Source of the DNA: a virus
Length of the DNA: 29,575 nucleotides
Reading direction: 5' to 3' (one strand)
IMG/VR virus record: IMGVR_UViG_3300035698_009561
Span: 1 to 29,575 of that record
Position numbers and translations under genes: made by a program. Position 1 is the stretch's first letter. Each line of letters begins with the position of its first letter. This document shows, piece after piece, positions 7,729-28,433 of the stretch. The notes beneath the pieces are model-generated. The model made no database searches, was not told where the DNA came from, and worked only from the letters and a program-made list of their open reading frames with translations.

Positions 7729-10179
7729 CTATCCTATGATAATGGGGAGCGGATCATTTCTTCCGATACTCGGACCCCGCTCCTCTTTCCCTGTCACCGG
7801 TCTGCTTTTCCCTATCACCCAGGACACGTCATCCTTTTGCGAAGACTCTTGGTCCCCTGCGTAGATCGGACCATTCAGCTTCGACAGATTCAAACCCATC
7901 ACTACACCCGCCACAGCATCGGCAACATCCTTGGAACCGGCGACGGGGTGATCTACCTTGCCCGCCAGTCTGTCATACTCCAAAGACTCGACTTCTTCAA
8001 GTAAAGGCTTGTAATCGTAAATCCGAATCCGGTCCTCGTAGAACGCACTCTTCAGAGCATCATAGGCATCCGTTGTCCTGTCAACAGACAATATCTTCGA
8101 GTTCAAGACACGCTGCTTCATGTGCTGGAGTGTCTCGGCACTCTGGTACGAATCCGTTGAAAACCCGCTCAGGCGAAACCCATGACCCATCAACTCGTAA
8201 ACCAGCCGCCTCACGTCGGGAATGTATATCTGCTCGTTCGGTGGAGGGATGATTCGCAGCATGAAGTCTATCACGATAAACGGAGCAACGTCGGTGTAAA
8301 CAGTACCGTCTCTGGCACGCCTCACAACCTCTACCGTCCTGGCAATGTGCCCCATGGCAAGGCCCGTACAGTCACCACTTAGCGACGGGTCTATATGGAT
8401 GTGCCTCGCCGCACCTGGGTTCATCCTTGGCTGCCACACGGCCTCCTTGTGGCCACCGCGTAGCCTCCGCTCTCCACGCACAGCAATCTTGTCCCAGATA
8501 AAATCACCGTGAACGCCGTACGCAAACTCCTGGACAGTGAACGGATGCTCCCTCTTGTCAATGCAGTTGTGGACAGCTTCCTTCCGGTGAATAAAGGGGC
8601 TGATAGCGTGCGTACTGACCCCGGCAATGTCCCGAATCGCACTCTCAAGATCCCTCGTAAAATCCTCGTAGTATTCCACCGGCACGTTGATAATAGTGGA
8701 GTCCTCGTCAACGTAAGCAGCCTCATCTACCTCCAGGACACGGGAACTCGACGAAGATGACCCAACCAATACCCTGAACGTCTCTCCACAATAATCCGAC
8801 TCTGCCCGAACATCCCAGGCAGCATAGTCCATCACGAACACGGAAAAATCCTTCTCGACCTCCTTGATCCGCCTGTCAATAAACGAATTGAGCGTGTTCG
8901 CCGAACTAAGCAAAATCATCATCCCCGGAAGATCCGACGACGCCTTCAGGAACCTCGACTTGATTCTTCGGATCAGACTGGCATAGGTTTTCTCGGCAAG
9001 GTCGAATGAGGCCACGGTCTTTTTCTTCCCACCAGTCTCGGCCATGACTTGACCCTTCGTCGTCATAAAGTTGGCCTCATCCATGCAGTTATGGCTGCAA
9101 ACAGGTGGCAGGTCTTTGTCAAGCCCAGTATAAAACCTGTGAGTCCCCGGCACGTTGACAACATCGTAGACATCGATGGGCTTCCCGTATTCGCCTATCT
9201 CAAGAACCTCGGCACAACGAACATCATCTTTTTGCAACAAACGATCGCCTACAGCCAAGTCATCGGCGTAAACCCAATCAAAAACCCCTCCCCTGAGAAC
9301 CATCCACCTGTGCTCCTTCGTGCATAACAATCTCTGACCGGTAGACAACCGAACAGGGCGCACTGGCTTCCTTCCTGTCATCTGCACCATCACGTCACCG
9401 GAAAGGTACTCGTGGCCATCATCATCCGAAGTCCACACAGAGACACTTTCCCCGACCAAACCATCTATCCGCTCTGGGCCGTTCGCTGTCCATACCAGAT
9501 GCTCGCCGGACAGACACCCTCCGACGATGTTCATCCCGAGGACTCTGTCCGAATTGCAGCTACCGATCGTGAGGCGGATATTCTCCGGGAACTCCGTGTT
9601 GTCCCGGCCATATTTCGGCTTGAAGTTCTCAGTGAAGTAAGGGGAGATTTTCAACTTGTCATCAATCGCACTCTTCATCACGGTACGGGCAAGGTGAAGG
9701 CTTTTCGACATGGCAGCAAACACGATCTCGGAACCAGGGCTCAACCCGTACGCCAACTGCGGAGAACGCAGGCACGAGATCAAGTAGAGCATCCGGCACA
9801 CTCCGATCGAAGCAAACGTCGTCTTCCCGATACCGATGGCTCCGGTAAGGATCGCTTCCCGGTAGGCATTGCCGTCATCGATCTCAATCAAATCACGCCG
9901 CAGCTTTGGAAACAACGTCTTGCACGAGTCTCCGAGATAGTACGGGTCCGTCAAGAACGTGGTCATCGAAACAGGATCCCGCTTCCACCTATACTCCCGG
10001 CAAGCATCTAGAATATGGGTGTCTCCCCGCCTCATGTCGTCGAGAAGCGCAGTGACCAACTCACGCTGATCCGGGGTCATATCGTCCATCTCTTTCTCGA
10101 GAATCGCCCGCTCCTCGCCAGCAGTCCGCACAGACCGTCTCGAAACACGGCCACTCGGATCCTTGACTTGCCGGATCAA
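7729..10179 (-). CDS. Terminase large subunit (gp17-like) containing an intein
   Basis: An 816-codon frame: a DNA-packaging ATPase-nuclease split by a 143-residue intein. The host protein (~673 residues) has Walker A GAIGIGKT at 113-120, Walker B ending MDEA (Asp367, Glu368), a coupling-type motif ILLSSAN near 422-427, and an RNase H-like nuclease domain with IDPSLSGD (Asp597), GFSTDSYQS (Asp676) and KDVADA (Asp751/754). The intein sits immediately before the Cys of Walker B. The only supported start is TTG at 10179 in a TTGA overlap with the previous stop, with GAGG seven bases upstream. It works with the portal and small terminase. Confidence 0.95.
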   Translation of the reverse strand: MIRQVKDPSGRVSRRSVRTAGEERAILEKEMDDMTPDQRELVTALLDDMRRGDTHILDACREYRWKRDPVSMTTFLTDPYYLGDSCKTLFPKLRRDLIEIDDGNAYREAILTGAIGIGKTTFASIGVCRMLYLISCLRSPQLAYGLSPGSEIVFAAMSKSLHLARTVMKSAIDDKLKISPYFTENFKPKYGRDNTEFPENIRLTIGSCNSDRVLGMNIVGGCLSGEHLVWTANGPERIDGLVGESVSVWTSDDDGHEYLSGDVMVQMTGRKPVRPVRLSTGQRLLCTKEHRWMVLRGGVFDWVYADDLAVGDRLLQKDDVRCAEVLEIGEYGKPIDVYDVVNVPGTHRFYTGLDKDLPPVCSHNCMDEANFMTTKGQVMAETGGKKKTVASFDLAEKTYASLIRRIKSRFLKASSDLPGMMILLSSANTLNSFIDRRIKEVEKDFSVFVMDYAAWDVRAESDYCGETFRVLVGSSSSSSRVLEVDEAAYVDEDSTIINVPVEYYEDFTRDLESAIRDIAGVSTHAISPFIHRKEAVHNCIDKREHPFTVQEFAYGVHGDFIWDKIAVRGERRLRGGHKEAVWQPRMNPGAARHIHIDPSLSGDCTGLAMGHIARTVEVVRRARDGTVYTDVAPFIVIDFMLRIIPPPNEQIYIPDVRRLVYELMGHGFRLSGFSTDSYQSAETLQHMKQRVLNSKILSVDRTTDAYDALKSAFYEDRIRIYDYKPLLEEVESLEYDRLAGKVDHPVAGSKDVADAVAGVVMGLNLSKLNGPIYAGDQESSQKDDVSWVIGKSRPVTGKEERGPSIGRNDPLPIIIG
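9088..9516 (-). other. Mini-intein in TerL (143 residues, no homing endonuclease)
   Basis: Residues 222-364 of the TerL frame do not belong to a terminase. They start with Cys (CLSGEHLVWT), contain a block-B-like CTKEHRWMV, a block-F-like VYDVVNVPGTHRFYTG, and end VCSHN followed by Cys (+1), which is the standard His-Asn/Cys splice junction. No LAGLIDADG or HNH segment lies between B and F, so this is a mini-intein near the minimum size. Removal joins NIVGG to CMDEANF and restores Walker B. All splicing residues look intact, so it should be active. Confidence 0.92.
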
Positions 10180-10841
10180 TTCACGTCCTCATCCCTCATC
10201 GAATCAAGCCGGAGCAAACTCTCAGCAATGGCCAGCGCTTTCCCGGTTGAATTCGGGTCACGCATCCGCAGTGCGATCTGTTCCCCGTACCTTTCAGCGA
10301 TATCCTCACCAAGCTCCGGCCTCACACCCAGGGTGCCCAAATTCCTGCCACCGTCCAACCCGAGGTCCATCTTTATATCGTGCCTCTTCTGGAGTAGCGC
10401 AGCGGCCAAGGCAATCTCCTGATTCATGTGCCTATTTAGGATACGTGTTTTCTGCTCGAACGACCCACCAATGTCGATCCGGTCCATCTGCTTCTTGAAC
10501 AGTTTTTCAAGCCACTCAAGCTCGTCAACGCCACGTTCAATCTCAAGACTGGCCTTCCTGGCTGCCCTCGGGAGAAGCTCGCCCGAACGCCTCGCCGGTG
10601 GCAGGTCATTCCTGTACCTGGACAACACGACAACAAGACTATCCCTCGCCATGTCAGTGCACTCTGATTTTTCTTCGTGGAGCCACTTCGCAATGTCAGG
10701 CATAGACATGCCGTGGAAGATCATATCGTCAAGCTCGGCCCGGCACTCAAGGTCAAGGAAGCGGGCATGTTTCTTCTTCTTCGGAGCCCGCTTCTTCTTC
10801 GCCTTTACCTTGTTACCAACGTCGTCAACTGACTTCACCAT
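10176..10841 (-). CDS. Probable terminase small subunit
   Basis: A 221-residue protein directly upstream of TerL and overlapping its start. It begins with a Lys-rich tail (KAKKKRAPKKKKHAR) and then has a helix-turn-helix-like segment around MSMPDIAKWLHEE, followed by mostly helical sequence. Small terminases bind packaging DNA with such an HTH and form a ring that activates TerL. Sequence similarity to known small terminases is not obvious to me, so the call rests on the HTH and on position. The ATG at 10841 is chosen because GAGG lies about six bases upstream; TTG at 10856 and ATG at 10844 are alternatives. Confidence 0.6.
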   Translation of the reverse strand: MVKSVDDVGNKVKAKKKRAPKKKKHARFLDLECRAELDDMIFHGMSMPDIAKWLHEEKSECTDMARDSLVVVLSRYRNDLPPARRSGELLPRAARKASLEIERGVDELEWLEKLFKKQMDRIDIGGSFEQKTRILNRHMNQEIALAAALLQKRHDIKMDLGLDGGRNLGTLGVRPELGEDIAERYGEQIALRMRDPNSTGKALAIAESLLRLDSMRDEDVN

Positions 10842-11601
10842 CATCAACCTCGCCAATGATGCTGTCAGCCACCACAGTCACTGCTTCAAAAAAAGCGCCA
10901 GCATCTACGCCCGCAGCGTCTACCTTTTTCATCATGGATTCTACAGCCTTGAAGGCCTTGGCGTCAACCTCCACGTACAAGTGCTTCTTGCCGCCCCAGT
11001 CAAAGTACATGAAGTGCTTCTCCACGGTCTCGCCGTACTTCCTGAAAATCTTGTGAAGAATCTCACTCATGTTGTCAACCGTACGAAGCTCCGCATCCAC
11101 GTTGTCAAGCTCGTTCTGGAACTCATCCACAGCCTCTTTCGGGAGCCCGGCATCAACCATGCTTTTCTTCGTCGATTTGATCAGCTTCAAAAACTCGGCA
11201 TCATCGGCGAAACCCATCATCTCAGCCATCAACTCGTCGTCGTGTCGGTCCGAGACATCGTTGTAAAGCTCCAGGAACTTTCCAGGGTGAAGAGAGCCCT
11301 TGATGATATTCAGGCGCATCGTCTCAAACTTCTGGCGGTCAACGTCCTGCCATTTCTCGTCCGACAGCACCACGCACGGGATCTCCTCGTACCCAAGCAG
11401 CTTGCAGGCGGCAAACCTGTGGGCTCCCCCAATGATCCTGTATTTGTCACCGTCCGGCACCACCTGGATAGGGTCAATCATGCCCGAGTTGGTGATATTC
11501 TCGACAAGCAAGTCGAACTCCTTGTCTGTCATCACATTCGGGTTCCACTCGTTTGCATCAATCTTCCCAACCGGGATCTCCACGAAGTCTCCACCCAGCA
11601 T
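10825..11601 (-). CDS. ParB-like nuclease-domain protein
   Basis: A 258-residue protein. Residues 8-80 are a ParB/Spo0J N-terminal (sulfiredoxin-fold) domain: an IPVGKIDANEWNPN opening, then IQVVPDGDKYRIIGGAHRFAA containing the GGxHRxxA motif at 58-65, then GYEEIPCVV. In ParB proteins this fold binds CTP. The remaining ~180 residues are helical and unlike ParB's HTH domain. The ATG at 11601 has GGAGG seven bases upstream; longer starts lack an SD. Its place between the sugar cassette and the terminase suggests a role in DNA recognition or packaging, or in binding repeated sites such as the palindrome found here; that is inference. Confidence 0.8.
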   Translation of the reverse strand: MLGGDFVEIPVGKIDANEWNPNVMTDKEFDLLVENITNSGMIDPIQVVPDGDKYRIIGGAHRFAACKLLGYEEIPCVVLSDEKWQDVDRQKFETMRLNIIKGSLHPGKFLELYNDVSDRHDDELMAEMMGFADDAEFLKLIKSTKKSMVDAGLPKEAVDEFQNELDNVDAELRTVDNMSEILHKIFRKYGETVEKHFMYFDWGGKKHLYVEVDAKAFKAVESMMKKVDAAGVDAGAFFEAVTVVADSIIGEVDDGEVS

Positions 11602-11603
11602 AA

Positions 11604-12269
11604 TCAACCTCCATTGTCGCAAGCAAATATAATCCTGACGGCACCATACGGCTCGGCCAAGTCCATGCCGGCCTGTGCACCAAACCATTGAGAAGACAAC
11701 CTCACGCCCCACTCAGATCGCAAATGCGGCCTTTCCCTGGCCTCATCCCTGTATAACGCAATCGATTGCGCCTTCAAACCGACCTCTTCTTCCGTGAGTT
11801 CCATGTAGGCCGTTGCCTTGAATTCATCTACCTGTCTCGATGACTGTGAACTTCCTCCCGGAACAAAGTAAGTCATAACAGTCAAGCCCCTTGAGGCGAT
11901 CATGCCCGCCCTGTGGACCGCACGGTGGTCCTGGTGGAGATCCCCGTGGTCAGGCAACAAAACAACATTCGGCTTGAACGCCAAAACCGCAGCCTCTATG
12001 TGGCGCAGCACGTCGACGAAGTGGCCACCAACCAACTCGTCTGGGAAGGCGGAAGGGAACAGAGCCCCATAGCCCAATAATTCTCGAACACTCTCTGCGT
12101 ACCCACGAGCATCCTTCGTGAAGATACCACCATATTCATGCGAATAGGATCTCCCCGCAACAAAAACAACCGCTGCGTCGGCACCCTTCCTGGCAAGCAA
12201 CCCGCCACAGCCAAGAACTTCATCATCGTAATGTGGAGCTACCACCAAAACTCTTCCACCTATCTGCAT
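11604..12269 (-). CDS. PIG-L/LmbE family N-deacetylase
   Basis: A 221-residue zinc hydrolase of the family that removes acetyl groups from N-acetylated sugars and related conjugates. The N-terminal metal motif is APHYDDE (residues 11-17, usual form AHPDDE), and the second is HGDLHQDH (108-115, HxDxxxDH). Length is normal. It has no signal peptide, so it acts in the cytoplasm. The SD GGGGGTG lies upstream of the ATG at 12269. It is the last gene of the sugar cassette before the ParB-like gene, and probably frees an amino group on a sugar made or transferred by its neighbours. A GCAATCGATTGC copy lies inside it. Confidence 0.9.
   Translation of the reverse strand: MQIGGRVLVVAPHYDDEVLGCGGLLARKGADAAVVFVAGRSYSHEYGGIFTKDARGYAESVRELLGYGALFPSAFPDELVGGHFVDVLRHIEAAVLAFKPNVVLLPDHGDLHQDHRAVHRAGMIASRGLTVMTYFVPGGSSQSSRQVDEFKATAYMELTEEEVGLKAQSIALYRDEARERPHLRSEWGVRLSSQWFGAQAGMDLAEPYGAVRIIFACDNGG
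11758..11769. repeat. GCAATCGATTGC palindrome, copy 2
   Basis: Perfect palindrome, extended to CGCAATCGATTGCG (11757-11770). It lies inside the PIG-L gene and encodes A-Q-S-I-A, the same peptide as copy 5. Confidence 0.9.
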
Positions 12270-12283
12270 ACAACACCCCCTTG

Positions 12284-13780
12284 CTAGACATCTTCTGGTA
12301 GTGTTTTACTGCCAGGACGTTGCAATACAACGCTATCTTTTCCAACATCTATCCACCCTGCATTGAGGAAAGCATGACGCAAAGACACATCTGGAATCAA
12401 CTTCATTATCCCGTCAACGTCCGCATCGTGAGCCATCGCCATCCTTGCTTCCCTCAGAGAAAGGGAAGGTGCTGTTATGTTACCAGCCAAATCAGCAAGC
12501 CACCTCGTCACCCTGACCTTCCTTGAATCCACAGCCGCACCCCAACAAACAGACACCATTCGCCTCGCTACATTCTCCACATAGAACGTGTCCTCAAACC
12601 AATCATACGCCCCGGAATCAGCCACCGCCCTTCTTGCAAAAGGAACATCCAAAACTATCTTGCGGAGCATAGCAACCAACCCTTTCCAGTCACCCTTCTC
12701 AACAACAAACGGATAGTTCTCTGGCAGCAAACCGTCAAGCCATGGGAACCGCATGAACACTCCAACCAAACCAGAAGCAAACATCTCCCACCAGCTAACC
12801 CCACCACTCTCTGTCTCCGAAACACAAATGAAAACATCCGCACTCTGCATAACTGGCAAGTAGTCTTTCCCGTCCATGTCATAACGAACACCCAGAAAGC
12901 CGCCACCAAGAGACTCGATAGCCTTCGACTCCGTGCTTGGTGACTCCATCGTTGTAATCAGAAAGCGCAAGTCAACCCCAAGCTCCCTGACCCTCTTGGC
13001 TGCTTGGATTTGCCGGTCAACATTCTTGACTTTCGCCGAAGTCAACCTTCCACCGTAGAACACAACAGGGGGATCGTTGACATGGCCTACTTTCTCTATG
13101 ACCTTGATGTCAATGGGCAGTCCGACCACCTTTGCTTCCGAGAACTTCACTAGCGTACTAGGTCGCAAAACCTTGCCCAGCGCCCTGATCCACAGTCGTT
13201 TCTCGTTCTCAAAAGTGAACGTCGGAACATCAACAAGCGCACCGAGACACTCCTGCATCTCTAGCGCCCACCGTCCACAAAACCACTTCTCTTCAACCAA
13301 AATGTCACTGGCGATATTCACAATCGGCACGTCCACCAAGTAAACGCTATCAGACATACCAAAGCCGGACACCATCGCCTTTATGCTTGGGCTAAACGAA
13401 GGTATCCAATTCAGAATCACGTCAACAACAGGGAGCCCTCTTCTCTGTCCGAAGAAATGAGCCATCTCCGGCGTTGGAGCCATGTATAGCCACGGAGAAG
13501 ACAACATCTCAACGTCCACTGCATGCAAACCTTCGTACAGGTCATCCCTTACAACCCAATCCACCCAACCAACAACCTTCCTTGAATCGATCTTCTGCCG
13601 TCTGTACGGAATCGGTCGAATAACAGTTACATCGCAGCCGAAGTCAACCATCGCCCTAGCTAGACGCAGGGCAGAAAGAACGCTACTGCACGAACCGACA
13701 GGATTCATCCAATAATCAGGCACCACCAGCACTCTCAAAGTCTCTTTTGGCGATCTGACTGCACCATTCACAAAAACCAT
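12284..13780 (-). CDS. GT4-type glycosyltransferase
   Basis: A 498-residue GT-B glycosyltransferase. The N-terminal half opens RVLVVPDYWMNPVGS, an acceptor-domain start. The C-terminal half has VVFYGGRLTSAKVKN near 240 and the donor-binding ExxxxxxxE motif at E324-E332 within SETESGGVSWWEMFASG, typical of GT4. The ATG at 13780 follows GGGGGT about seven bases upstream; the longer frame has no better SD. It lies two bases after the formyltransferase stop. It would transfer a nucleotide-activated sugar; neither donor nor acceptor (virion protein, DNA base, or surface glycan) can be read from sequence. Confidence 0.85.
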   Translation of the reverse strand: MVFVNGAVRSPKETLRVLVVPDYWMNPVGSCSSVLSALRLARAMVDFGCDVTVIRPIPYRRQKIDSRKVVGWVDWVVRDDLYEGLHAVDVEMLSSPWLYMAPTPEMAHFFGQRRGLPVVDVILNWIPSFSPSIKAMVSGFGMSDSVYLVDVPIVNIASDILVEEKWFCGRWALEMQECLGALVDVPTFTFENEKRLWIRALGKVLRPSTLVKFSEAKVVGLPIDIKVIEKVGHVNDPPVVFYGGRLTSAKVKNVDRQIQAAKRVRELGVDLRFLITTMESPSTESKAIESLGGGFLGVRYDMDGKDYLPVMQSADVFICVSETESGGVSWWEMFASGLVGVFMRFPWLDGLLPENYPFVVEKGDWKGLVAMLRKIVLDVPFARRAVADSGAYDWFEDTFYVENVARRMVSVCWGAAVDSRKVRVTRWLADLAGNITAPSLSLREARMAMAHDADVDGIMKLIPDVSLRHAFLNAGWIDVGKDSVVLQRPGSKTLPEDV

Positions 13781-13782
13781 CG

Positions 13783-14664
13783 CTATACCCCCATGCAATC
13801 GATTGCGCCAAACGTGCCACCGGACACAGGCGAAAAGTCGACAGGACACTGCACTACTATGCTGTTTCCGTCACCACACCCGACGACTAACATCCCACCA
13901 TCCACAAGAAAACACCCAGGGGGCTGAACATGCTTCGACACGCTAACCGGCGACGAAAACATAACCACGATCCCTTCGCTCAAAGAAAACGCTAGAGGGT
14001 AAGGAGCCGACAATGCCCGTATAAACCTAGCCACCCGAAGCGCAGGAAGCGACCAATCAATCTCACTCTGGCTCGGAACTCTCTGCTTCACAACACCGGA
14101 ACCAGCAAAAGCACCAACAGGAACAACGACACTGCCAGCCATAGCAGCCTCAATAGCAACACCAGACTCTTCCCGGCACACATCTGCAACCTTCCTATGA
14201 AACCAAGTGGCATCGACGTCGCTCGGAAGACTAAATACTGATTGGTGAAAAACGTCCCCTTTATCAACCTCTCCTGTCATCCTAAAGAACGACACAGCGC
14301 CCTCGCTTACCCCGGACATTACTGCCGCAAACACAGGAGCCCCACCACGACCAAACGGCAACCTTGAAGGATGGACACCTACACACAACCACCTACCCCA
14401 AACATCCTCGTGAACCATCAAAGACCAACCACAAAACAGAACCACATCTGGGGACAATCCTTCCAGGAACCGGACAAGATCGCTCTTGCGTGCTTTCCAC
14501 TTCACCTGGAGAGCTCGATGAACCTTCACCCTCGCCCGTATATCACTCAAATGAACAAACCCTGACTGCGTTGGATTATAGTTGTGAATGACCCCGCACA
14601 CCCCACCAAGACCCTCTATGGCTGCCAGTCCCCAACCGTCATTTGTAGCCACAACAACTCTCAT
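13783..14664 (-). CDS. Formyltransferase-fold protein with altered active site
   Basis: A 293-residue protein resembling methionyl-tRNA and sugar N-formyltransferases, which move a formyl group from 10-formyl-THF to an amine. The core motif is VGVHPSRLPFGRGGAP at 95-110 followed by FFRMTGEVDKGDVF at 126-139. The usual active-site triad is Asn-His-Asp; here His98 and Asp134 are present but the Asn two before the His is Gly96. The C-terminal ~100 residues form a second domain. In this cassette an amino sugar is the likely substrate rather than Met-tRNA. With the Asn missing it may be inactive, slow, or use another chemistry. The C-terminal codons carry a palindrome copy. Confidence 0.8.
   Translation of the reverse strand: MRVVVATNDGWGLAAIEGLGGVCGVIHNYNPTQSGFVHLSDIRARVKVHRALQVKWKARKSDLVRFLEGLSPDVVLFCGWSLMVHEDVWGRWLCVGVHPSRLPFGRGGAPVFAAVMSGVSEGAVSFFRMTGEVDKGDVFHQSVFSLPSDVDATWFHRKVADVCREESGVAIEAAMAGSVVVPVGAFAGSGVVKQRVPSQSEIDWSLPALRVARFIRALSAPYPLAFSLSEGIVVMFSSPVSVSKHVQPPGCFLVDGGMLVVGCGDGNSIVVQCPVDFSPVSGGTFGAIDCMGV
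13795..13806. repeat. GCAATCGATTGC palindrome, copy 3
   Basis: Perfect 12-bp palindrome in the last codons of the formyltransferase gene (encoding A-I-D-C), about 15 bases upstream of the GT4 glycosyltransferase start. The flanks here are T and G, so the 14-bp form is not kept. Confidence 0.9.
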
Positions 14665-14700
14665 GTCTCCACCAAGTTAGGAATCCAAGAAAACACCCGC

Positions 14701-16086
14701 TCAAACATCGCCATCCTCCAGCTTACTGTAATCCAGGCGATAGACAGGCTCCGGTCCATCCAGCACATCCTCTATGGCCGGATGGCTCATAAGATAATCG
14801 TGAATCAGCTTCCTTGTGATCCACCGCCCAATGCTCTCCTTCTTGACACTTCCACCCTCCTGCTCCAGTCTCCTGATCACCTCAGATAATGAAGCCTCCC
14901 CACCGGCAGAAGCAACCTTCTTCAAGAAACCTCTCGTCCTTACACTCTCCCTAGACATCTTTCTGCCGAGTTCAACCGCATCGACACAATAGTCGTATAC
15001 CCTAGAATACATCGCATACACATCCAGGTGCTTCACTCTATCGTAGCCACCCCACTCCATGAATCTCGACTGCTCCTTTGGCCAATAGCGAACCACACGA
15101 ACCAACATAGCAACCAAGTCGGCCTTGTTGCTCCATATATTCCAATAATCCACCGGCAACTCGGGAAGCCAAACAGAATCTTGCGCCAACTCAACAACAT
15201 CCAACGCCATTGCCTCTACAGACTGCGTAACACCGGCTGCAGTGCCACCAAGAACCATAACGTGAGCACGTGACAGGATGTCAAGGAAATCGTCCCTAGA
15301 ACAGTCCGTCTTGATCGAAACTCCAATATCCTCCAAGGGGACACGAATCGAATCCGCTACCAAGGAATCTGGAGTGGTGACAACAATATCTACGTCACAC
15401 CCCAATCTGAAGAGATCGATCAGCGCCCCGGCTATGACCTCCGAATTATGAACACCATTCAGCCTCGACCCAAACACCACAGTCAGTTTCTCGTTCTTCT
15501 TTGTTCCGGCGAACCTTTCTCGCAACTTGACAACTTCTGGACACACAGGAATGACCGTTGACCTATCGAGGGAAGAATTCATATATGAACCCTTATAGAT
15601 ACCCCCAAGCCGATCCACGTAGGACTGACGGTCCTTCTCCCCAATAAAAATCTGCCTGTACCGGGAACAAAAGTCTATCCACTTCGAGCTTTTCATGTAG
15701 TAAAACATCGGGTGCCACAGAACAACGGGAACATTGAACGGGCTCTCCCCCTCCAACCTGAAACTGTTGGCAGCAAGGTCCACCGTCAATGCCTGTTGCG
15801 GAGAGTTCACGAGGACAGCATCAATCACATTCTTTCCGTCCTCTATACTGAACAAATCCCCTATGTTTCTCATGCTACAGAAGGACAGCGGGCCGTCATC
15901 TCTCCAAACGGTAGACCTCGGCAATGTGCCAGTAGCACCAATGGTCCCCTTCGGGACAACGACGTGGTTCCAACCACGGTCCTTGTTGGCCTCAAGCAGC
16001 TTTATGATCTCCGTCCAGTCCCCAGAATGGTGTAGCTTCGGATGTGTGGAAGGAACAACCATCAACCGTATCCCTTTACGCCCCAT
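14701..16086 (-). CDS. GT-B-like glycosyltransferase with winged-helix-like C-terminus
   Basis: A 461-residue protein. Residues 1-180 resemble an acceptor domain with VPVVLWHPMFYYMKSSKW; 200-330 resemble a GT-B donor domain (LTVVFGSRLNGVHNSEV near 201, VMVLGGTAAGVTQSVEAMA near 276-295). Residues ~398-455 look like a winged helix: ASLSEVIRRLEQEGG, then KESIGRWITRKLIHDYL, then a strand VYRLDY. That tail is unusual for a glycosyltransferase and could bind DNA. The ATG at 16086 has GGAG eight bases upstream; the longer frame (16110) lacks one. It overlaps the radical SAM gene by 11 bases. No close named homologue is recognised. Confidence 0.72.
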   Translation of the reverse strand: MGRKGIRLMVVPSTHPKLHHSGDWTEIIKLLEANKDRGWNHVVVPKGTIGATGTLPRSTVWRDDGPLSFCSMRNIGDLFSIEDGKNVIDAVLVNSPQQALTVDLAANSFRLEGESPFNVPVVLWHPMFYYMKSSKWIDFCSRYRQIFIGEKDRQSYVDRLGGIYKGSYMNSSLDRSTVIPVCPEVVKLRERFAGTKKNEKLTVVFGSRLNGVHNSEVIAGALIDLFRLGCDVDIVVTTPDSLVADSIRVPLEDIGVSIKTDCSRDDFLDILSRAHVMVLGGTAAGVTQSVEAMALDVVELAQDSVWLPELPVDYWNIWSNKADLVAMLVRVVRYWPKEQSRFMEWGGYDRVKHLDVYAMYSRVYDYCVDAVELGRKMSRESVRTRGFLKKVASAGGEASLSEVIRRLEQEGGSVKKESIGRWITRKLIHDYLMSHPAIEDVLDGPEPVYRLDYSKLEDGDV

Positions 16087-17524
16087 ACTTTTTCTCCAAA
16101 ATAGCATCAAGTCTTCGACTCAACCCGAAACCGGCAGCACTATCAACAGCAAGCAGAGCAATCAAACCATTCAACCTGGTCGGAACGTGCTCTATTGCGA
16201 ACCTGCCACAAACAGAATCCCTCGTGCCGGAAAGCAACCCAAGAAACCTATCAGCCACAAGTAACGCCCCTGCATCCCTCGGCATGATGCGCTCGCCACC
16301 ACCCGGATAGTCCGCAAACATCTTTGTCCCAGGAATCGGAATCACGAAAGGCTCCACAGCAATATCCACACCCATCTCTATCCAATCGACACACCGAACA
16401 GCCGTGCTCTTGATATCCTCCACTGTCGTCATCGGAGAAAAGAGGATCACGTTAGCGAACACCCCGATACCAGCAGACAACGAAGCATCTATGGCAAAGT
16501 CCGCCTTGTCGGAAGTGAAGCCCTTTTGGAACTCGGCAAGAACACTGTTGCTATACGATTCCACGCCGTAACACACAACCCTCACACCAGCAGAAGCCAT
16601 CAAATCGAGAATGGACTTACTCACCTGATCAACCCTAGTAATGACCGTGAACCGGAGTCTACGCCACAGAGAATCCGCAAGCCTCTTACTGATTATGGCA
16701 CGAAGCAAAGACACACCGGAGCGCCTCGGAATAAAGAAATTGTCATCCGAAAAAACAACCTGCCTGACATCGTGTGAGGCCAAAGCTCTGTCTATGAACC
16801 CGAGAACGGAATCCTCAGACACTCGCTCTACCCTCACCTTGCACTCATAGGAAAAATCAAGGAACATAGGTGACGAACAAAAAGAGCAGGAATAAGGGCA
16901 CTTGTTTCCGCTCACAACACGGATAGACCTGATCTCCTCAATGGGAGGGTCTTTATATCCCTCCTCCATTCGGTCCCAGTACGCCTCGTAAGGCATCGAC
17001 TTGACATCTATCCTCTCGTACGCCAAAGCTAACTGCTCTCCCGTCAACGGAGAAGACGGGGAGTTACGGACAGCAACACCGTCACGAACAACAGCCATGC
17101 CGTTTGTGCTCAGAGCCCTATCAACACCTCCGCCCGCAAGACCATTGACAAAGGAAGCCAGCGCCACTTCCCCCTCTCCCATGCAAACAGCATCAACGCA
17201 GTCATTACTCAGAACATCCTCATACGCCAACGAGGCATGAACCCCACCGAAAACAACCAAACAGCGACCTACCTCCTTAGCTGTCCTAGCAACTTCAAGG
17301 TCGAAACCAAAAGTCCAATACGTCGTACTTACACCGACAACATCTGCCAAAGAGAAAAGGCGCTCAATCTCAGAGGCAGCATCAATAACAGGATCTACAA
17401 CATCGCAACGAATCGACTCAGACCGCAACCAGCCAGCTATCCTATGGACACCCAAGGGCGGCGAAATAAACCCGGCAATCCTATCTGAACGACCCTGGCT
17501 CGGGCCAACCAAAACAACCCTCAC
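16076..17524 (-). CDS. B12-binding-domain radical SAM enzyme
   Basis: A 482-residue protein. The N-terminal ~150 residues form a cobalamin-binding (Rossmann-like) domain with PPLGVHRIAGWL at 22-33, VFGGVHAS at 91-98 and VCMGEGE at 113-119, as in BchE-like and related B12-radical SAM enzymes; there is no DxHxxG motif, as is usual in this class. The radical SAM 4Fe-4S motif CPYSCSFC holds Cys209, Cys213 and Cys216. Family members methylate unactivated carbons or rearrange carbon skeletons. The GTG at 17524 has AGGAG about seven bases upstream. In this cassette it could C-methylate or ring-modify a sugar; that is inferred. Confidence 0.9.
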   Translation of the reverse strand: MRVVLVGPSQGRSDRIAGFISPPLGVHRIAGWLRSESIRCDVVDPVIDAASEIERLFSLADVVGVSTTYWTFGFDLEVARTAKEVGRCLVVFGGVHASLAYEDVLSNDCVDAVCMGEGEVALASFVNGLAGGGVDRALSTNGMAVVRDGVAVRNSPSSPLTGEQLALAYERIDVKSMPYEAYWDRMEEGYKDPPIEEIRSIRVVSGNKCPYSCSFCSSPMFLDFSYECKVRVERVSEDSVLGFIDRALASHDVRQVVFSDDNFFIPRRSGVSLLRAIISKRLADSLWRRLRFTVITRVDQVSKSILDLMASAGVRVVCYGVESYSNSVLAEFQKGFTSDKADFAIDASLSAGIGVFANVILFSPMTTVEDIKSTAVRCVDWIEMGVDIAVEPFVIPIPGTKMFADYPGGGERIMPRDAGALLVADRFLGLLSGTRDSVCGRFAIEHVPTRLNGLIALLAVDSAAGFGLSRRLDAILEKKYGA

Positions 17525-17533
17525 GGCAATCTC

Positions 17534-18601
17534 CTACAAAAACGGACTGTAATCGGCCAAAGCAGAATCAAGCACTTCGTTATGCTCCACGAACCGGCAC
17601 GAGGGGCACCTCGCCACCACGGACTCGTCCTCAAACAACTTGCAGATCCTTCTTCGATTCTCGCCCAACCATATCTCTAAAAAGGTATTCTCATGCAGCG
17701 AACCGAAGACAATATCGTCATGCACTTGCTTGAACCCGTCCGCACCTTCCTGCATTGCCAAGGCACAACAAACGTAGACCAGCCCATTGGCCGCCACATG
17801 CGCAACAAAATTGTGCGATCTGCAAGCCGAAAAAGACCTCTTGTTGTGGTCTTTGTCCGTTCTCGACGTGTAGACACTGAAAGAGTCCGATTCCATCACC
17901 TTCGATTCTTCGATGTGCCCAATGGAACTAGGGAAGTCACGGTCAAGAACATCATACGAATCCTGATCGTGAATCATGGCCTTGAAGTGGACATAGGAAC
18001 ACCCAATGCTCTTGGCAATGTGCGCAGCGGTAACAATCTCGTCCACATTGCTTTCGCTCACAATGAACGAATACCCGATCACCATCGAGCTATTCGACTC
18101 TCGCAACACTTTTATGCCGTCCATTACGGCGGCAAACCTGCCATGGTCGCAACCATGGTCCTTTGCGTACGTCAACGGAGAACCAGCATCCACACTAACC
18201 CGACACCAATCAGCGCACTCAGCAATGGCTGACCTCTTGTCAGGGTCCATCAAGCCATAGCCGTTCGTAATAACACCGCTCCGCAAACCGAGGCGGCTTG
18301 CTTCTCGTAAAGCAGGAGCAAAATCCGGCGAAACCGTGGGCTCCCCACCGCCCTCCCAGACAATAGACTCACCACCAAGGGACTTAAAGTCGGCCAATAA
18401 AGACCGGACAACATCCATGTCAAGACTCGAAGCTCTGTTTGCTTCACGCCTTACCTTGTCACTGCACCACCAACACTTCAGGTCGCAAGCATTTGTGAGG
18501 TGGACCTCAGCCGTCACCGGGCCAAAAGGCTTCCCTTTTTGCAAGTCGGATATTCTTGAAGCATACTTCAAAACCTTGAACTTCCCATACTGTCTCTTCA
18601 T
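17534..18601 (-). CDS. Radical SAM enzyme with twitch/SPASM domain, copy A
   Basis: A 355-residue enzyme with the radical SAM motif NACDLKCWWC (Cys39, 43, 46) and SAM-binding WEGGGEPTVSP (82-92). The C-terminal part has C-x13-G-x4-C (ACRSHNFVAHVAANGLVYVC) and a late CPSC pair, the pattern of a twitch domain with one extra Fe-S cluster. Such enzymes include the aminocyclitol dehydrogenase BtrN and peptide-modifying enzymes. The ATG at 18601 is preferred over GTG at 18604 because AGGTGG is then well placed. It lies eight bases after a clear paralogue and probably acts in the same pathway. Confidence 0.9.
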   Translation of the reverse strand: MKRQYGKFKVLKYASRISDLQKGKPFGPVTAEVHLTNACDLKCWWCSDKVRREANRASSLDMDVVRSLLADFKSLGGESIVWEGGGEPTVSPDFAPALREASRLGLRSGVITNGYGLMDPDKRSAIAECADWCRVSVDAGSPLTYAKDHGCDHGRFAAVMDGIKVLRESNSSMVIGYSFIVSESNVDEIVTAAHIAKSIGCSYVHFKAMIHDQDSYDVLDRDFPSSIGHIEESKVMESDSFSVYTSRTDKDHNKRSFSACRSHNFVAHVAANGLVYVCCALAMQEGADGFKQVHDDIVFGSLHENTFLEIWLGENRRRICKLFEDESVVARCPSCRFVEHNEVLDSALADYSPFL

Positions 18602-18609
18602 CACGCCAC

Positions 18610-19635
18610 CTATAGAAAATTCTTCGTCTTAGACGTTCTCGCCCCATGGAACAATTTATTGAACTTCGTCATCCTGCACACCGGGCAATTCTCGCTACAA
18701 AAATCGGCATGTCTAACTAGATTAGCCTGGTGCTTCCTCGCTTCCCCCAGCCAGATACTCATGAACGTGTCATCGTTCAAATCACCAATCGGAGGCCACG
18801 AATCTTCCACATTCAGCCGCCCGCACAAATAAACCTTCCCCGAACCGTCCACAATCGCACTCAAACTGTGGGCAGAACACGGCAACCCGGCATTGCCACA
18901 AACCCCATTCTGCTCAAGCCCAGAAAGCATTACATCGAACACATCTGACTTCAGAGACTTCAAGCCATCAATGGGAACAAGGTGCTCTCCCCTCATGTCG
19001 TCATGATCTATGACTGACCGCAACTGAACATAGTTCACACCGAGATCCCTGAGCTTCACCACGACCCCGAGGAGATCCGAAGACCCATGCCTCGTCACGA
19101 CAAAGCTGACCCCGACAACCGGCCCCGTTCTGGCTACTCTGGCGATATTGTCAAGCACCACACCAAACAGACCTGTTCGACCGCCGGCCTTCATCTCCGC
19201 AAACTCAGCATCCGTACTCACGTCCAAAGAGAATCTGATCCAGTCGAAGCAATCGGCAACCTCGACAACTTTCCTCGACACACCGTTCGTAATCAACCCG
19301 ACAGGAAGCCCAATCTCTCTTGCGTACCTCACGACCTCGACAAACCCAGGATGGACAGTCGGCTCACCACCACCCTCAATCGTCACGCCACGCACACCAA
19401 ACTCCTTGAAGTCTTCTAGTAGCCCGAGAAGACGGGCAGTGGACATCTCACCACCATTCCTCTCCCGGACAGAGGCATCGCTACACCACTGGCATTGCAG
19501 GTTGCACTTGTTTGTGAACGACAACTCGACGACGATTGGCTGGCTCAGATCCGTCACGCCAAAGTTGTCGGCACGCAATATCGCCTCTAGTTTTCGTGGG
19601 AACAGAAACAGCTTTTCCGGGCCAATCTCAGACAT
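18610..19635 (-). CDS. Radical SAM enzyme with twitch/SPASM domain, copy B
   Basis: A 341-residue paralogue of the next gene. It has TNKCNLQCQWCSD with Cys44, 48 and 51, IEGGGEPTVHPGF at 87-99 and LITNG. The C-terminal region has C-x13-G-x4-C (PCSAHSLSAIVDGSGKVYLC) and a final FCSENCPVC, one more Cys than copy A, so its extra cluster may be ligated differently. The start at 19635 has GAGGA upstream and overlaps the aminotransferase stop by eight bases, so translation is coupled. A radical-based oxidation or epimerisation of a sugar or amino acid is likely; the substrate is unknown. Confidence 0.9.
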   Translation of the reverse strand: MSEIGPEKLFLFPRKLEAILRADNFGVTDLSQPIVVELSFTNKCNLQCQWCSDASVRERNGGEMSTARLLGLLEDFKEFGVRGVTIEGGGEPTVHPGFVEVVRYAREIGLPVGLITNGVSRKVVEVADCFDWIRFSLDVSTDAEFAEMKAGGRTGLFGVVLDNIARVARTGPVVGVSFVVTRHGSSDLLGVVVKLRDLGVNYVQLRSVIDHDDMRGEHLVPIDGLKSLKSDVFDVMLSGLEQNGVCGNAGLPCSAHSLSAIVDGSGKVYLCGRLNVEDSWPPIGDLNDDTFMSIWLGEARKHQANLVRHADFCSENCPVCRMTKFNKLFHGARTSKTKNFL

Positions 19636-20719
19636 CTAAATCCTCGCAAACAGCGGAGTCAATGGATCGGCTCAACAATTCACAACATTCAGCAGCGGAA
19701 GCTCTAGCATCCGAATCAGACCACGACCTCTTGTACGGAAGGTTGACGTGTATTCTCGAGAACCTCTCAGCGCCCGAGAACCCAGGGGACAGCGTGAAGT
19801 CATAGGTTGAACCGGAACACAACCCGGTTCTCTTGTACGAACTCACAGCCAGACACGACTGAACCACCACCGTATACTTGTAGCACGTCGAACCGGCACC
19901 CTGTAGCAACGAAAGGCCATGCTTACCCAACTCTTCCTCGTAGGCCTTGCGGACCATCTCCCGGTGGGCAACGATTGTGTCACTTGAATCAATCTCGGCC
20001 AACATCACAGCGGCGGACAACTCGGAAACCCGGAGATTGTACCCAGGGCTATCGAAGACACCGCCACCACGATCCTTCCCTTGGTTCGCAAACTTCACAG
20101 CGAAACCAAAATCGGCATCGTCCCGAAAGCTGGATATGCCACCCTCTGACGAAACAAAGACCTTCGTCGGATAGAAGCTCCACGCAGCGTAATCGGCCAC
20201 CGTGCCCGCCAAACCATCCCCTTCCGCATACTTGCACAAGTGCGCATGGGAACAGTCCTCAACAAGCACCGCATTGAACTCGTCACAGACACCCTTGATG
20301 GCTTCAAAGGTTCCGTCGAAAACCCCGCCGTTGTGGACGTAGCAAACAACTGCCTTCCCTTGTTGTTCGCTGAGGGTGTCTCTCAAGCAACGTGGGCTCA
20401 TAAGCCCACTCACCCCAACATCGACAAAGCGGACACGGAACCCGGCTCGCTCAAAAGCCGTCCCGACCATCGGAATCGTCATCACTGGGATCAAGACAAC
20501 CTCAGCAAGAGACTTTCTGGCAATCGTGTGCGCTATCAGTTCAAGGGCCGTCGTGCCACTCGATACGGCCACACAACCGCCCGAAACGAAGCCATGCAGA
20601 CCACCCCACTCTTCCTCGACACGCTCTGTCAATGGGCCAACACTAAGAAGCCCGGAATCCAAGGCACCGGCAATCAAGGAAAGAATTCTCGATTTATCTT
20701 GCTCTCCAAACATCTTCAT
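19628..20719 (-). CDS. DegT/DnrJ/EryC1-type PLP aminotransferase
   Basis: A 363-residue PLP enzyme of the sugar aminotransferase family, which converts keto sugars or keto-cyclitols to amines. It has GCVAVSSGTTALEL at 48-61 (phosphate-binding region), VEDCSHAHL with Asp155 (contacts the pyridine nitrogen), and SFYPTKVFVSSEGG with Lys186 as the Schiff-base lysine. The length is normal. The ATG at 20719 sits in an ATGA overlap and has AGGTGG six bases upstream. It would supply the amine that the formyltransferase or deacetylase later acts on. Glutamine or glutamate is the usual donor in this family. Confidence 0.92.
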   Translation of the reverse strand: MKMFGEQDKSRILSLIAGALDSGLLSVGPLTERVEEEWGGLHGFVSGGCVAVSSGTTALELIAHTIARKSLAEVVLIPVMTIPMVGTAFERAGFRVRFVDVGVSGLMSPRCLRDTLSEQQGKAVVCYVHNGGVFDGTFEAIKGVCDEFNAVLVEDCSHAHLCKYAEGDGLAGTVADYAAWSFYPTKVFVSSEGGISSFRDDADFGFAVKFANQGKDRGGGVFDSPGYNLRVSELSAAVMLAEIDSSDTIVAHREMVRKAYEEELGKHGLSLLQGAGSTCYKYTVVVQSCLAVSSYKRTGLCSGSTYDFTLSPGFSGAERFSRIHVNLPYKRSWSDSDARASAAECCELLSRSIDSAVCEDLDV

Positions 20720-21849
20720 CGCACCACCTTTGAACAAGAACCATAAGACAACAGCACTCTTTTGGGAACAAAAACAGACTCCCATGGAACCTCTATGGTT
20801 CCATGCTGCTCAAACGCAAGATACCTCCAGAGCGTCCCCCCAATATCACCGGAATACCGAAGATCAACGCCAAGCGGCATAGGCTTTTCCCAATCTATCT
20901 CGTGACCAACCTCGCCAAGCCGCACCTTTCCTTTCCACGTATGAACATCGAAAACGTAAGGCTCTGGGTACGGGACATCAATCTGACAGCCATCTTTTAC
21001 CGGGAGAACCTCATCATCCTTGTCGGTATACGTCCTCGATAACAGACGCCACAAAACCAAAACCTCCTCGTCGTGACCAGCCGAAGCCAGCCTACCAACG
21101 ATCCCAAGATTCTCTTTGCTCAAAACAGAATGAGACTGAACAGCATGAACCATGGACAATCGAACATTTTTCTTGATTCTCTCTGCAGTCGGAGTCCAGC
21201 ACGTAGACATAACAACCAACTCGTAAAGATCCTCCATGGCGGAATCTTCGCCACCGGCAAAGGCAGCAGCTTTCTCCGCAATAAACGACGAAACATCCTT
21301 CGGGTACTTGTATTGGGGCGGATCGATTTTTGCCTCTGTGTCCTCGTAGCGCCAGCCATACGACGCTGCCACACCCATCCAGTAAGGAGAGAACAAACTC
21401 CTATCTCTCAACTCCCAGTCCTTCGCCGTGGCACAAAAACCACGGACCAACCTATACGTAGGCAAACCAGCGTACAACGACCGAAGCACCTGGAGAGAAC
21501 TCATCTCTTCTCCCCAAATACTACGAAGGTACTGCCGGGCAGAACCCTTCTTTAGTGAATCCAAGATCCGAGCATAGGCCAGCGCCCTGCCATAGTTCCG
21601 AAGCCTTACTTCTTTGTGGAGTCCGCTCTTTGAGTTGTACCAGAGCGACTTGTTCCTCGCCTTGTAGTCACCAAACATAGGGTGCCCCGGAACGCTTCCC
21701 CGAAGATCAACGACCTCAACACTCCCATCTTTCATCTCGACCCGGACAGTGGACGTATCACCAAACAGCATCTGCTCCTCCAACTTTGCACCAACCAGCG
21801 TCCCAGCAAACTCACGGGCGAACGGAACTAAGGCAAGACAAGGAAACAT
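20716..21849 (-). CDS. Unknown 377-aa protein heading the sugar cassette
   Basis: A 377-residue soluble protein that I do not recognise. The centre is helical and Trp/Tyr-rich, e.g. RYEDTEAKIDPPQYKYP. The C-terminal third has short strands ending in EVPWESVFVPKRVLLSYG. There is no signal peptide or membrane span and no nucleotide-binding motif. The start at 21849 has GAGGG about eight bases upstream. It overlaps the aminotransferase by ATGA, so it is co-translated with the cassette and is probably part of that pathway or of its target. The 72 bases before it show no terminator or promoter. Confidence 0.8.
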   Translation of the reverse strand: MFPCLALVPFAREFAGTLVGAKLEEQMLFGDTSTVRVEMKDGSVEVVDLRGSVPGHPMFGDYKARNKSLWYNSKSGLHKEVRLRNYGRALAYARILDSLKKGSARQYLRSIWGEEMSSLQVLRSLYAGLPTYRLVRGFCATAKDWELRDRSLFSPYWMGVAASYGWRYEDTEAKIDPPQYKYPKDVSSFIAEKAAAFAGGEDSAMEDLYELVVMSTCWTPTAERIKKNVRLSMVHAVQSHSVLSKENLGIVGRLASAGHDEEVLVLWRLLSRTYTDKDDEVLPVKDGCQIDVPYPEPYVFDVHTWKGKVRLGEVGHEIDWEKPMPLGVDLRYSGDIGGTLWRYLAFEQHGTIEVPWESVFVPKRVLLSYGSCSKVVR

Positions 21850-21921: not shown

Positions 21922-22893
21922 TTACTCTTCGGTATCAGCGAGGTCATCACTCGGTTCTGCGTCTTCGACCGGATCCGGGTCTTCAGCCGGGGCCTTCCCT
22001 TCTTCGGACTCGCCGACCAGCTTATCAATCACCTCGTCACCGTACACGATCGCATCCTCTGTCGGATCGTAACCGATCAGCTTGATCCCAAGCTGGCGCT
22101 CGACATTCAACAGATACTCGGAGACTGTCTCAATACCCGAATTCGTGGCCAGGAAGTCTACGCAGATCATGTCAAGGGCGTGACCGTCCTTGTCAGAATC
22201 GGCCATCTGCTTCGCCTTCGACAAGGCACGCTCGACGTTGGAATTCTGATCCACGAACAAGGAGAAAGACTTTCGGATCAACTTGTCCTGGCTGGTGGAT
22301 GCAACGTCCGGGGAGTCGCTATCCATCCCGCCACCGTCACCACCCTTCAGGTGCTCCATCAATTCCTTGTACGAAGCCCCGTTGAGCCTTGCCATCCACT
22401 CCTCGGCGTTGTCGTCCGTGACCACATTGACAAGCTCCTTCGCCTTCGTCCAACCCATCTGCTTGATCCATTCCTGGACATCGGGGGACATGCGCCCGAA
22501 CCAGTCACGAATCGAAACAAGGTACTGCGCCTTCCGCAGATTGAATTCGAGATCAACCTCGATGTACTCCTGCCACGTCTTGAAGCCCCACGCAATGTAG
22601 TAGCTCTCGTTGTAAATCTCATGAAGGACCGAACTCAGATCCCAGTACGACTGTTCCGCACGGTCGCGGGCATCCTTCGCACTCTTTCGGACGTCGGCGT
22701 GCTCAAGCTCAACATCCACCGCACCCGCAAGAATCACAGTGGGCTGATCCACTGTCGTGCCGATGTCACCGGCACAGTAGTCATCTTCCGGTGGAACCTC
22801 TTCGGCACCCAGAGCATCCTTCACGACGCTCAGCCCAACCTTCCTCTTCTTCGATTCGACGCTACTCGTCTCAACTTTCTTCTTCTTCACCAT
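21922..22893 (-). CDS. Hypothetical protein with HTH-like helical core and acidic tail
   Basis: A 323-residue protein with a Lys-rich start (MVKKKKVETSSVESKKRK), a helical core (~65-190) with FKTWQEYIEVDLEFNLRKA and SIRDWFGRMSPDVQEWIKQ, and a strongly acidic C-terminus (PAEDPDPVEDAEPSDD). The core resembles the helical regions of some phage and plasmid DNA-binding proteins, but I cannot assign a family. The ATG at 22893 is chosen because GGAGGA lies six bases upstream; GTG at 22923 and ATG at 22905 are less likely. It is the first gene after the promoter at 22957-22986. Confidence 0.75.
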   Translation of the reverse strand: MVKKKKVETSSVESKKRKVGLSVVKDALGAEEVPPEDDYCAGDIGTTVDQPTVILAGAVDVELEHADVRKSAKDARDRAEQSYWDLSSVLHEIYNESYYIAWGFKTWQEYIEVDLEFNLRKAQYLVSIRDWFGRMSPDVQEWIKQMGWTKAKELVNVVTDDNAEEWMARLNGASYKELMEHLKGGDGGGMDSDSPDVASTSQDKLIRKSFSLFVDQNSNVERALSKAKQMADSDKDGHALDMICVDFLATNSGIETVSEYLLNVERQLGIKLIGYDPTEDAIVYGDEVIDKLVGESEEGKAPAEDPDPVEDAEPSDDLADTEE

Positions 22894-22956
22894 CGCATCC
22901 TCCATGGGATAAACCGGAACCACTCGGCCCGGAACAAAAGCACATTCTCAAACCAA

Positions 22957-25379: not shown

Positions 25380-25952
25380 CTATATCAGACATGGATCACA
25401 GATCACCCCTGGCGGTGAAGCCCTCTCAAGCCGCACTTCCGTCACCGTCCCGTCATCATCAAAACTAGGGACCAGAGAGCACACGATCGGAGAAGCCACC
25501 TCGAACAAGTGACCCCGCTTGAACACTATCAGGACCGAAGCATGGTCCCCGCCCAACTGCTTCTCGTCCGGCACCCAGAAACCCAACCGGCCCTTCACTG
25601 AGATCAAGGCATAGCCGTTCAAGGCGTACTGGTGCCACCACTCCTGATCCGTCTTCGTCGCAGGACAAATCAACCATGTATCCGCACGCCCAGACCTGGC
25701 CTCGAAAAACGCCTTCTCCACGAACTTCGACAAGATAGACTTCTTGTACGGCGGATTGCACCAACACACACCGCTCCAGTGCGTCGACGAAGGCAAGGCA
25801 CTGTCGACCTCGGTGAAGTACCGGGCACACAGCGCACTTTCCTTCGTCGCTGCCACGTCCATATCGAAGCCGCCAATCAACCTCGACAACGCACCGAAGA
25901 AATCTCTCGGCGTCCGCCTGTCACCACGGTATGTCCCGCCATGCTTCCCCAC
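25380..25952 (-). CDS. Phage DNA adenine N6-methyltransferase (Dam family)
   Basis: A 190-residue enzyme of the phage Dam-type family. It has RTPRDFFGAL and FDMDVAAT near the N-terminus, the catalytic NPPY (66-69) in CWCNPPYKKS, and LICPATKTDQEWWH, a family hallmark. It transfers a methyl from SAM to adenine N6, commonly in GATC, to protect phage DNA from restriction or to mark DNA. The start is GTG at 25952 with AAGGAG six bases upstream. It overlaps no other gene and is followed by a terminator. The target sequence cannot be read from the protein. Confidence 0.93.
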   Translation of the reverse strand: MGKHGGTYRGDRRTPRDFFGALSRLIGGFDMDVAATKESALCARYFTEVDSALPSSTHWSGVCWCNPPYKKSILSKFVEKAFFEARSGRADTWLICPATKTDQEWWHQYALNGYALISVKGRLGFWVPDEKQLGGDHASVLIVFKRGHLFEVASPIVCSLVPSFDDDGTVTEVRLERASPPGVICDPCLI

Positions 25953-28361: not shown

Positions 28362-28433
28362 GATTCCCCCTCCACAATGTCGTTTGCTATTGGGCAATCT
28401 TCGCCGTGGTAAAAACTGTAATCCAAACCTTTG

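Follow-up and report, generated by a model that had tools for sequence, protein, structure and literature searches.

The virus record IMGVR_UViG_3300035698_009561, a fragment of 29,575 bases (the window, meaning the whole stretch analysed), contains nine consecutive minus-strand genes that form an exchangeable amino-sugar island. The island occupies a recurrent slot that runs from the conserved gene u21922 to ParB-TerS-TerL. In order of transcription it encodes U377, a DegT-type aminotransferase (DegT), two radical S-adenosylmethionine (SAM) enzymes (rSAM1 and rSAM2), a B12-binding radical SAM enzyme (B12-rSAM), a glycosyltransferase (GT2), a formyltransferase-like protein, a second glycosyltransferase (GT1) and a PIG-L-type deacetylase. 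An initial annotation of this DNA had proposed that the phage both produces a rare amino sugar and attaches it, and the gene content supports such a phage-encoded pathway. In our best reading, to which we give a probability of about 0.5, the amino sugar would decorate the phage's own DNA before packaging.

An exchangeable island in a recurrent slot

A ParB-anchored scan of viral sequences yielded 62 loci, and we limited the census of slot content to the 47 of them that extend at least 7 kb upstream. A glycosyltransferase (GT) family gene is present in 32 of the 47 and any sugar gene in 34; the other 13 have no sugar gene. Several T4-like relatives have an empty slot: the u21922-ParB gap is no more than 73-282 bases in L037, L039, L041, L043, L044, L046, L078, L080 and L081. 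The ParB of L037 is 56% identical to that of the window, yet its slot is empty, whereas L045 is cassette-bearing. In most of the remaining ParB-anchored loci, sugar genes centred on a GT occupy the slot. The order GT-ParB-TerS-TerL is found in Rhizobium phage RHph_Y1_11, JP1, RcTiptonus and Vibrio phage V-YDF132, in Rhodobacter phage RcZahn (across the genome ends), and in the published gene table of DLP3 (PMC7326821). The position next to ParB-TerS-TerL is fixed in both T4-like phages and siphophages. Backbone relatives L004-L016 (about 39-45% portal identity) have other genes at this place, for example DNA polymerase A or an SNF2-type helicase. We considered whether ParB belongs to the cassette and moves together with the sugar genes, and rejected this, because u21922 and ParB occur without an island in L037, L039-L046 (except L045), L078, L080 and L081.

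The radical enzymes of this island are rare among related viruses, whose slot holds simpler sugar sets. A search of eight backbone-relative contigs turned up no radical SAM gene, and none of 49 ParB-linked contigs had one above the Pfam cut-off. Scans of viral contigs with single proteins gave no close relatives of individual cassette proteins, but an alignment-based search did find them. A second phage with much of this set is L102 (IMGVR_UViG_3300009149_003859), with DegT, rSAM1, U377, rSAM2, a GT, PIG-L, ParB, TerS, TerL and portal in a row. Its cassette proteins are 31-43% identical to those of the window (42% for DegT and 33% for the counterpart of GT2). L102 differs from the window in that U377 sits between the two rSAMs, and in that a FemAB/GNAT-like protein and a CxxCxxCC protein are found where the window has B12-rSAM, the formyltransferase-like protein and one GT. 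Proteins of this CxxCxxCC (zinc/iron-chelating) type, about 160 residues long, are encoded in more than one cassette of the lineage (L038, 9468-9959; L102, 6860-7342). The GC content at third codon positions is 0.49-0.61 in the cassette genes versus 0.65-0.72 in most neighbours, and ATA and AGA codons are commoner in the cassette genes. Both properties are consistent with later acquisition of the cassette.

The initial annotation counted one unknown gene in the row. The ninth gene is there, but it can now be identified: judging from profile matches, U377 is a RarA C-terminal-domain (RarA-C) protein and no sugar enzyme. The profile of its family matches the RarA/MgsA C-terminal domain in the Protein Data Bank (PDB; 2qw6, 2.3e-13; 2r9g; 3pvs, 3.2e-8), and Pfam gave no match for an AAA+ ATPase domain in U377. 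The AlphaFold model is weak (predicted local distance difference test [pLDDT], 55), and its top Foldseek match is the RarA domain 2r9g, with a non-significant E-value. The family is present in 20 of 34 sugar-bearing loci and in none of the 13 others (Fisher p=1.7e-4, uncorrected for relatedness). Among T4-like loci, all five sugar-bearing ones have it (the window, L038, L045, L102 and L103), and related proteins are encoded in the cassettes of RcZahn (gp141), Vibrio phage KarBoss and RHph_Y1_11. U377 as a backbone replication gene was rejected on account of its RarA-C identity, its place in the L102 gene order, and its confinement to sugar-bearing loci. We suspect that it is a DNA-associated partner of the cassette. 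A gene for a RapZ C-terminal-domain protein lies directly before the RarA-C gene in RcZahn (L018, 4496-4840) and RHph_Y1_11 (L034, 2371-2706). Escherichia coli RapZ senses glucosamine-6-phosphate, and thus a RapZ-domain neighbour would fit an amino-sugar pathway.

All recognisable genes of the window are on the minus strand (Table 1). In order of transcription (falling coordinates), genes for a Dam-type methylase and for RuvC- and Cas4-like proteins lead to u21922 and the cassette (21849-11604). Then come ParB, the TerS-like gene and TerL, and after these the T4-type portal, two unknown genes, the S77 prohead protease and the gp23 capsid protein. The flanks are those of a T4-like head and packaging operon (gp23 capsid, S77 protease, gp20 portal, TerL), in agreement with the location first proposed. 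The tight coupling of the row is also borne out: by their probable starts, neighbouring cassette genes abut, overlap by a few bases or are separated by no more than about 40 bases, and the reading frames are intact. A scan for promoters and terminators gave matches at chance level.

Table 1. Features of the slot, the island and its surroundings, with the matches that identify them.
Feature	Position	Strand	Evidence
u21922 (PHROG 17202), conserved, upstream border of slot	21922..22923	-	PHROG 1.2e-31; adjoins ParB in empty-slot relatives
U377, RarA/MgsA C-terminal-domain protein without ATPase domain, first cassette gene	20716..21849	-	profile vs PDB
DegT/DnrJ/EryC1/StrS sugar aminotransferase	19628..20719	-	PF01041 1e-36; pyridoxal phosphate (PLP) lysine motif SFYPTKVFVSSEGG
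rSAM1, radical SAM with SPASM/twitch-type C-terminus	18610..19635	-	PF04055 7e-16, PF13186 1.6e-5; CNLQCQWC
rSAM2, second radical SAM/SPASM enzyme	17534..18604	-	PF04055 2.8e-15, PF13186 2.7e-9
B12-binding radical SAM enzyme, predicted C-methyltransferase type	16076..17524	-	PF02310 3.6e-15, PF04055 4.6e-12; PDB TokK 3e-5
GT2, divergent GT4-like glycosyltransferase with extra C-terminal domain	14701..16086	-	PHROG 30253 1.1e-5; GT-family alignment
Formyltransferase-like protein (ArnA/Fmt family)	13783..14664	-	PF00551/PF02911 (Formyl_trans_N/C) 2e-9/6e-10
GT1, GT4-fold glycosyltransferase with C-terminal winged-helix-like domain	12284..13780	-	PF00534 (Glycos_transf_1) 7e-9; AlphaFold2 (AF2)
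PIG-L/LmbE-type de-N-acetylase	11604..12269	-	PF02585 2.9e-14; metal motifs PHYDDE and HQDH
ParB-like protein (PHROG 26387 family), backbone gene bordering slot	10825..11601	-	PF02195 1e-9; PHROG 1.6e-56
TerS-like gene between ParB and TerL	10176..10856	-	position; homology to RcZahn/RHph genes at same place
Terminase large subunit (TerL) with mini-intein	7729..10179	-	PHROG_2; intein Pfam match
Dam-type N6-adenine methylase, upstream of replication/recombination genes, outside sugar island	25380-25952	-	

The mini-intein of TerL spans about residues 222-364 (edges CLSGEH...HNC), and homologues are split around it. Long TerL reading frames in L010, L011, L016 and RcTiptonus suggest insertions there too, and that of L010 contains an intein with an HNH-type domain. 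A PHROG 18326 protein elsewhere in the window (27774-28397, minus strand) has a long alanine-aspartate repeat tract.

Predicted making and attachment of the sugar

The eight enzymes named by the initial annotation are all in place, with Pfam or PHROG matches in intact minus-strand reading frames. Catalytic motifs are intact in DegT, PIG-L and all three radical SAM enzymes. rSAM1 and rSAM2 contain the CX3CX2C motif and C-terminal auxiliary-cluster cysteines, as expected for SPASM/twitch enzymes. In a tree, rSAM1 groups with bacterial enzymes (99/94) and rSAM2 with the rSAM2 of L102 (100/99), and their separate placement indicates two families and no recent duplication. The formyltransferase was correctly named as to family (Formyl_trans_N/C), and compared with ArnA it keeps the catalytic His and Asp. 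However, the catalytic Asn is Gly, which makes formyl transfer doubtful. An NAD-dependent epimerase/dehydratase, which pairs with DegT in RcZahn, DLP3 and KarBoss, is absent from the window.

We postulate that an activated host sugar could be tailored by DegT, by rSAM1 and rSAM2 (both of the SPASM/twitch type), by B12-rSAM and by the formyltransferase-like protein. In the simplest reading of the sequences, a twitch enzyme would act ahead of DegT, oxidising a sugar hydroxyl to a ketone by radical chemistry, and DegT would transaminate the ketone. The B12 enzyme might C-methylate the sugar, and one or two GT4-type transferases would attach it. Judging from its fold and pairing, PIG-L would then strip the N-acetyl group and expose the amine, as in MshA/MshB and BshA/BshB. 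ParB probably contributes only as a neighbouring DNA-binding protein. This order of reactions, like the acceptor and the timing, is our inference; what the analysis itself shows is the gene content, the slot, the co-occurrence of genes and the folds.

A surface-polysaccharide amino-sugar pathway seems the likeliest source of the cassette chemistry. Bacterial relatives of rSAM1 are 40-46% identical to it and many are about 570 residues long. The sole relative scanned (L184, 4923-6623) is a fusion of a cytidylyltransferase domain (CTP_transf_3) with a radical SAM/SPASM enzyme and adjoins DegT and PIG-L. Several phyla have rSAM1 relatives that are about as long, and our literature search found no paper on this type of fusion. 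Of 47 bacterial rSAM1 relatives, 18 have DegT no more than 3 kb away, 5 have PIG-L no more than 4 kb away and 4 have a B12 enzyme nearby, and one cluster also contains O-antigen ligase. ParB, U377 and packaging genes were not found at the bacterial rSAM1 loci. The initial annotation had likened the cassette to aminoglycoside clusters. We rejected a pathway of that type: neither rSAM1 nor rSAM2 has a BtrN match in the PDB at E<=0.01, the butirosin-type 2c7t is far down the list of DegT matches, and closer bacterial relatives of rSAM1 are in polysaccharide-type loci. In line with the accompanying statement on the precursor, no sugar-precursor synthase such as 2-deoxy-scyllo-inosose synthase is among the genes scanned in this fragment.

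The AF2 model of GT1 (pLDDT 81.6; predicted template modelling score, 0.85) has a GT4-type GT-B fold as its core, and MshA and BshA are among the solved structures nearest to it by Foldseek. The core is followed by about 65 residues that, in the model, have the helix-strand-helix-helix-strand-strand order of a winged helix. In a library of viral models, the top full-length matches include ParB-linked GTs of the Arthrobacter phages Kitkat (template modelling [TM] score, 0.79) and BeatusComedenti (0.73). A 479-residue protein has a TM score of 0.80 to full-length GT1, and most GTs of about 370 residues score 0.42-0.60. Based on the model, the winged-helix-like domain might bind DNA. GT2 has no Pfam match.

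In the synthesis of mycothiol and bacillithiol, MshA and BshA have PIG-L deacetylases as partners. PIG-L of the window shares features of such a pair, with intact metal motifs and a position adjacent to the GT4-fold GT1. The PIG-L deacetylase in the GT-ParB-TerS-TerL cassette of V-YDF132 (L262, 3743-4420) is called an endolysin in the published genome paper. Because GT1 and PIG-L match the first two steps of mycothiol and bacillithiol synthesis, the product could be a soluble small-molecule glycoside, either an MshA/BshA-like thiol or a signalling compound, with no macromolecule adduct. We consider this very improbable, as there is no ligase or cysteine-adding enzyme and the GTs have a C-terminal domain beyond the MshA/BshA-like core.

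The acceptor of the sugar

The initial annotation had named the virion or DNA as the target, and of the two DNA is better supported by context. The phage's own DNA is favoured as the acceptor by the winged-helix-like domain at the C-terminus of the GTs and by the RarA-C protein, which occurs only with such islands. It is also favoured because the island adjoins packaging genes and because a GT and PIG-L stand beside base-modifying enzymes in the actinophages Klevey (ParB-Tet/JBP-like-GT-PIG-L, with the Tet/JBP-like match below the curated cut-off) and Indlovu (ParB-queuine transglycosylase, by annotation, -GT-PIG-L).

Several observations weigh against DNA as the acceptor. Pfam has no match for the C-terminal domain of GT1, and the winged-helix call comes from predicted secondary structure. 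The ParB and GT of Klevey and Indlovu have no detectable homology to those of the window. No hydroxylated-base enzyme (PF00303-type or Tet/JBP) is among the scanned genes of the window, which is a fragment. Tet/JBP (PF12851) was found in 0 of 49 ParB-linked relatives, in a search that had no match in control genomes either and may miss divergent members, and a thymidylate-synthase-type gene (PF00303) in 2 of 49. This absence of Tet/JBP and scarcity of PF00303 leave the usual hydroxylated base unexplained. A C5-methylase is present in 3 of 50 relatives; as a cassette neighbour it was rejected, since the methyltransferase of the window is of the Dam type. The observed/expected ratio of six-base palindromes averages 0.49 in cassette-bearing phages versus 0.73 in cassette-less ones, a weak comparison as the hosts differ. 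Relaxed avoidance of restriction sites was dropped as an argument for DNA modification: it would be expected of fully protected DNA, but the comparison came out the opposite way, with avoidance in cassette-bearing phages no weaker than in the others. Lastly, the relatives of rSAM1, DegT and PIG-L sit in surface-polysaccharide-type bacterial loci.

The bacterial loci also bear on whether the island could alter host surface polysaccharide, for superinfection exclusion or receptor masking, like the lipopolysaccharide (LPS) gene clusters of cyanophages or seroconverting phages. The closest bacterial set (the rSAM-cytidylyltransferase fusion, DegT and PIG-L) is near polysaccharide genes such as O-antigen ligase, and a cyanophage rSAM homologue lies within a heptose/LPS-like cluster. 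The DLP3 authors raised modification of either DNA or LPS for its GT, as an untested suggestion (PMC7326821). However, no membrane protein, membrane-bound transferase, flippase or polymerase was recognised among the nine cassette genes, and the slot is fixed beside ParB-TerS-TerL in T4-like phages and siphophages alike. We regard a role at the host surface as rather improbable.

Virion glycosylation is known for some phages, and the location of the island in a head and packaging operon would suit a sugar made late and placed on a capsid, tail or fibre protein, with U377 and ParB as bystanders of the packaging region. In podovirus MW202801, rSAM-GT sugar genes are found among structural genes, shortly past the major capsid gene. 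A virion-protein acceptor leaves unexplained both the confinement of RarA-C to sugar-bearing loci and the extra C-terminal domain shared by the GTs, and we think it possible but on the unlikely side.

Returning to DNA as the acceptor, we speculate that a GT4 enzyme with a DNA-binding C-terminal domain, assisted by an ATPase-less RarA-C protein, could link an amino sugar directly to a base, or to another DNA site, shortly before packaging. Such a system would be widespread and would work without Tet or a hydroxymethylase, and the window would hold a variant with a radical SAM-made sugar. In this specific form the proposal is decidedly tentative and, we think, unlikely to hold in every part.

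Comparison with known systems

Phage sugar clusters and DNA-modifying GTs are already known. In the literature searched we found no description of the fixed slot, of the RarA-C partner or of the radical SAM variant, and text searches brought up nothing published on this set of genes. Scattered phage genes, most of them unnamed, become one testable system: a sugar island, a fixed slot and a DNA-repair-type partner found only with the island. The simpler version is available in the cultured phages DLP3, RcZahn, Kitkat and V-YDF132. If DNA is the acceptor and no known base hydroxylase takes part, this would be a route of phage DNA modification not described in the literature searched, and the radical SAM version would add a set of candidate sugar-tailoring enzymes.

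A TET-dependent pathway of phage DNA glycosylation exists. The proposed system resembles that pathway and the T4 pathway (summarised in PMC11404850) in having a phage-encoded GT as the proposed DNA modifier, but the window and nearly all relatives gave no match for a hydroxymethylase or Tet. The pairing of a GT4 transferase with a PIG-L de-N-acetylase resembles MshA/MshB and BshA/BshB, but the window has an extra C-terminal domain, two GTs, sugar-tailoring enzymes and a phage location. The bacterial cytidylyltransferase-radical SAM/DegT/PIG-L loci are like the window in rSAM1, DegT and PIG-L and differ in the CTP_transf_3 fusion seen in L184. A close likeness in arrangement is to the sugar cassettes of Delepquintavirus DLP3/DLP5, RcZahn, KarBoss and RHph_Y1_11, which have GT-ParB-TerS-TerL and DegT like the window; in most of them a short gene separates GT from ParB. 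PIG-L is common to the window, DLP3/DLP5, RcZahn and KarBoss (RHph_Y1_11 is without it as annotated), and the RarA-C protein to the window, RcZahn, KarBoss and RHph_Y1_11. In place of the NAD-dependent epimerase/dehydratase that accompanies DegT in these phages, the window has three radical SAM enzymes.

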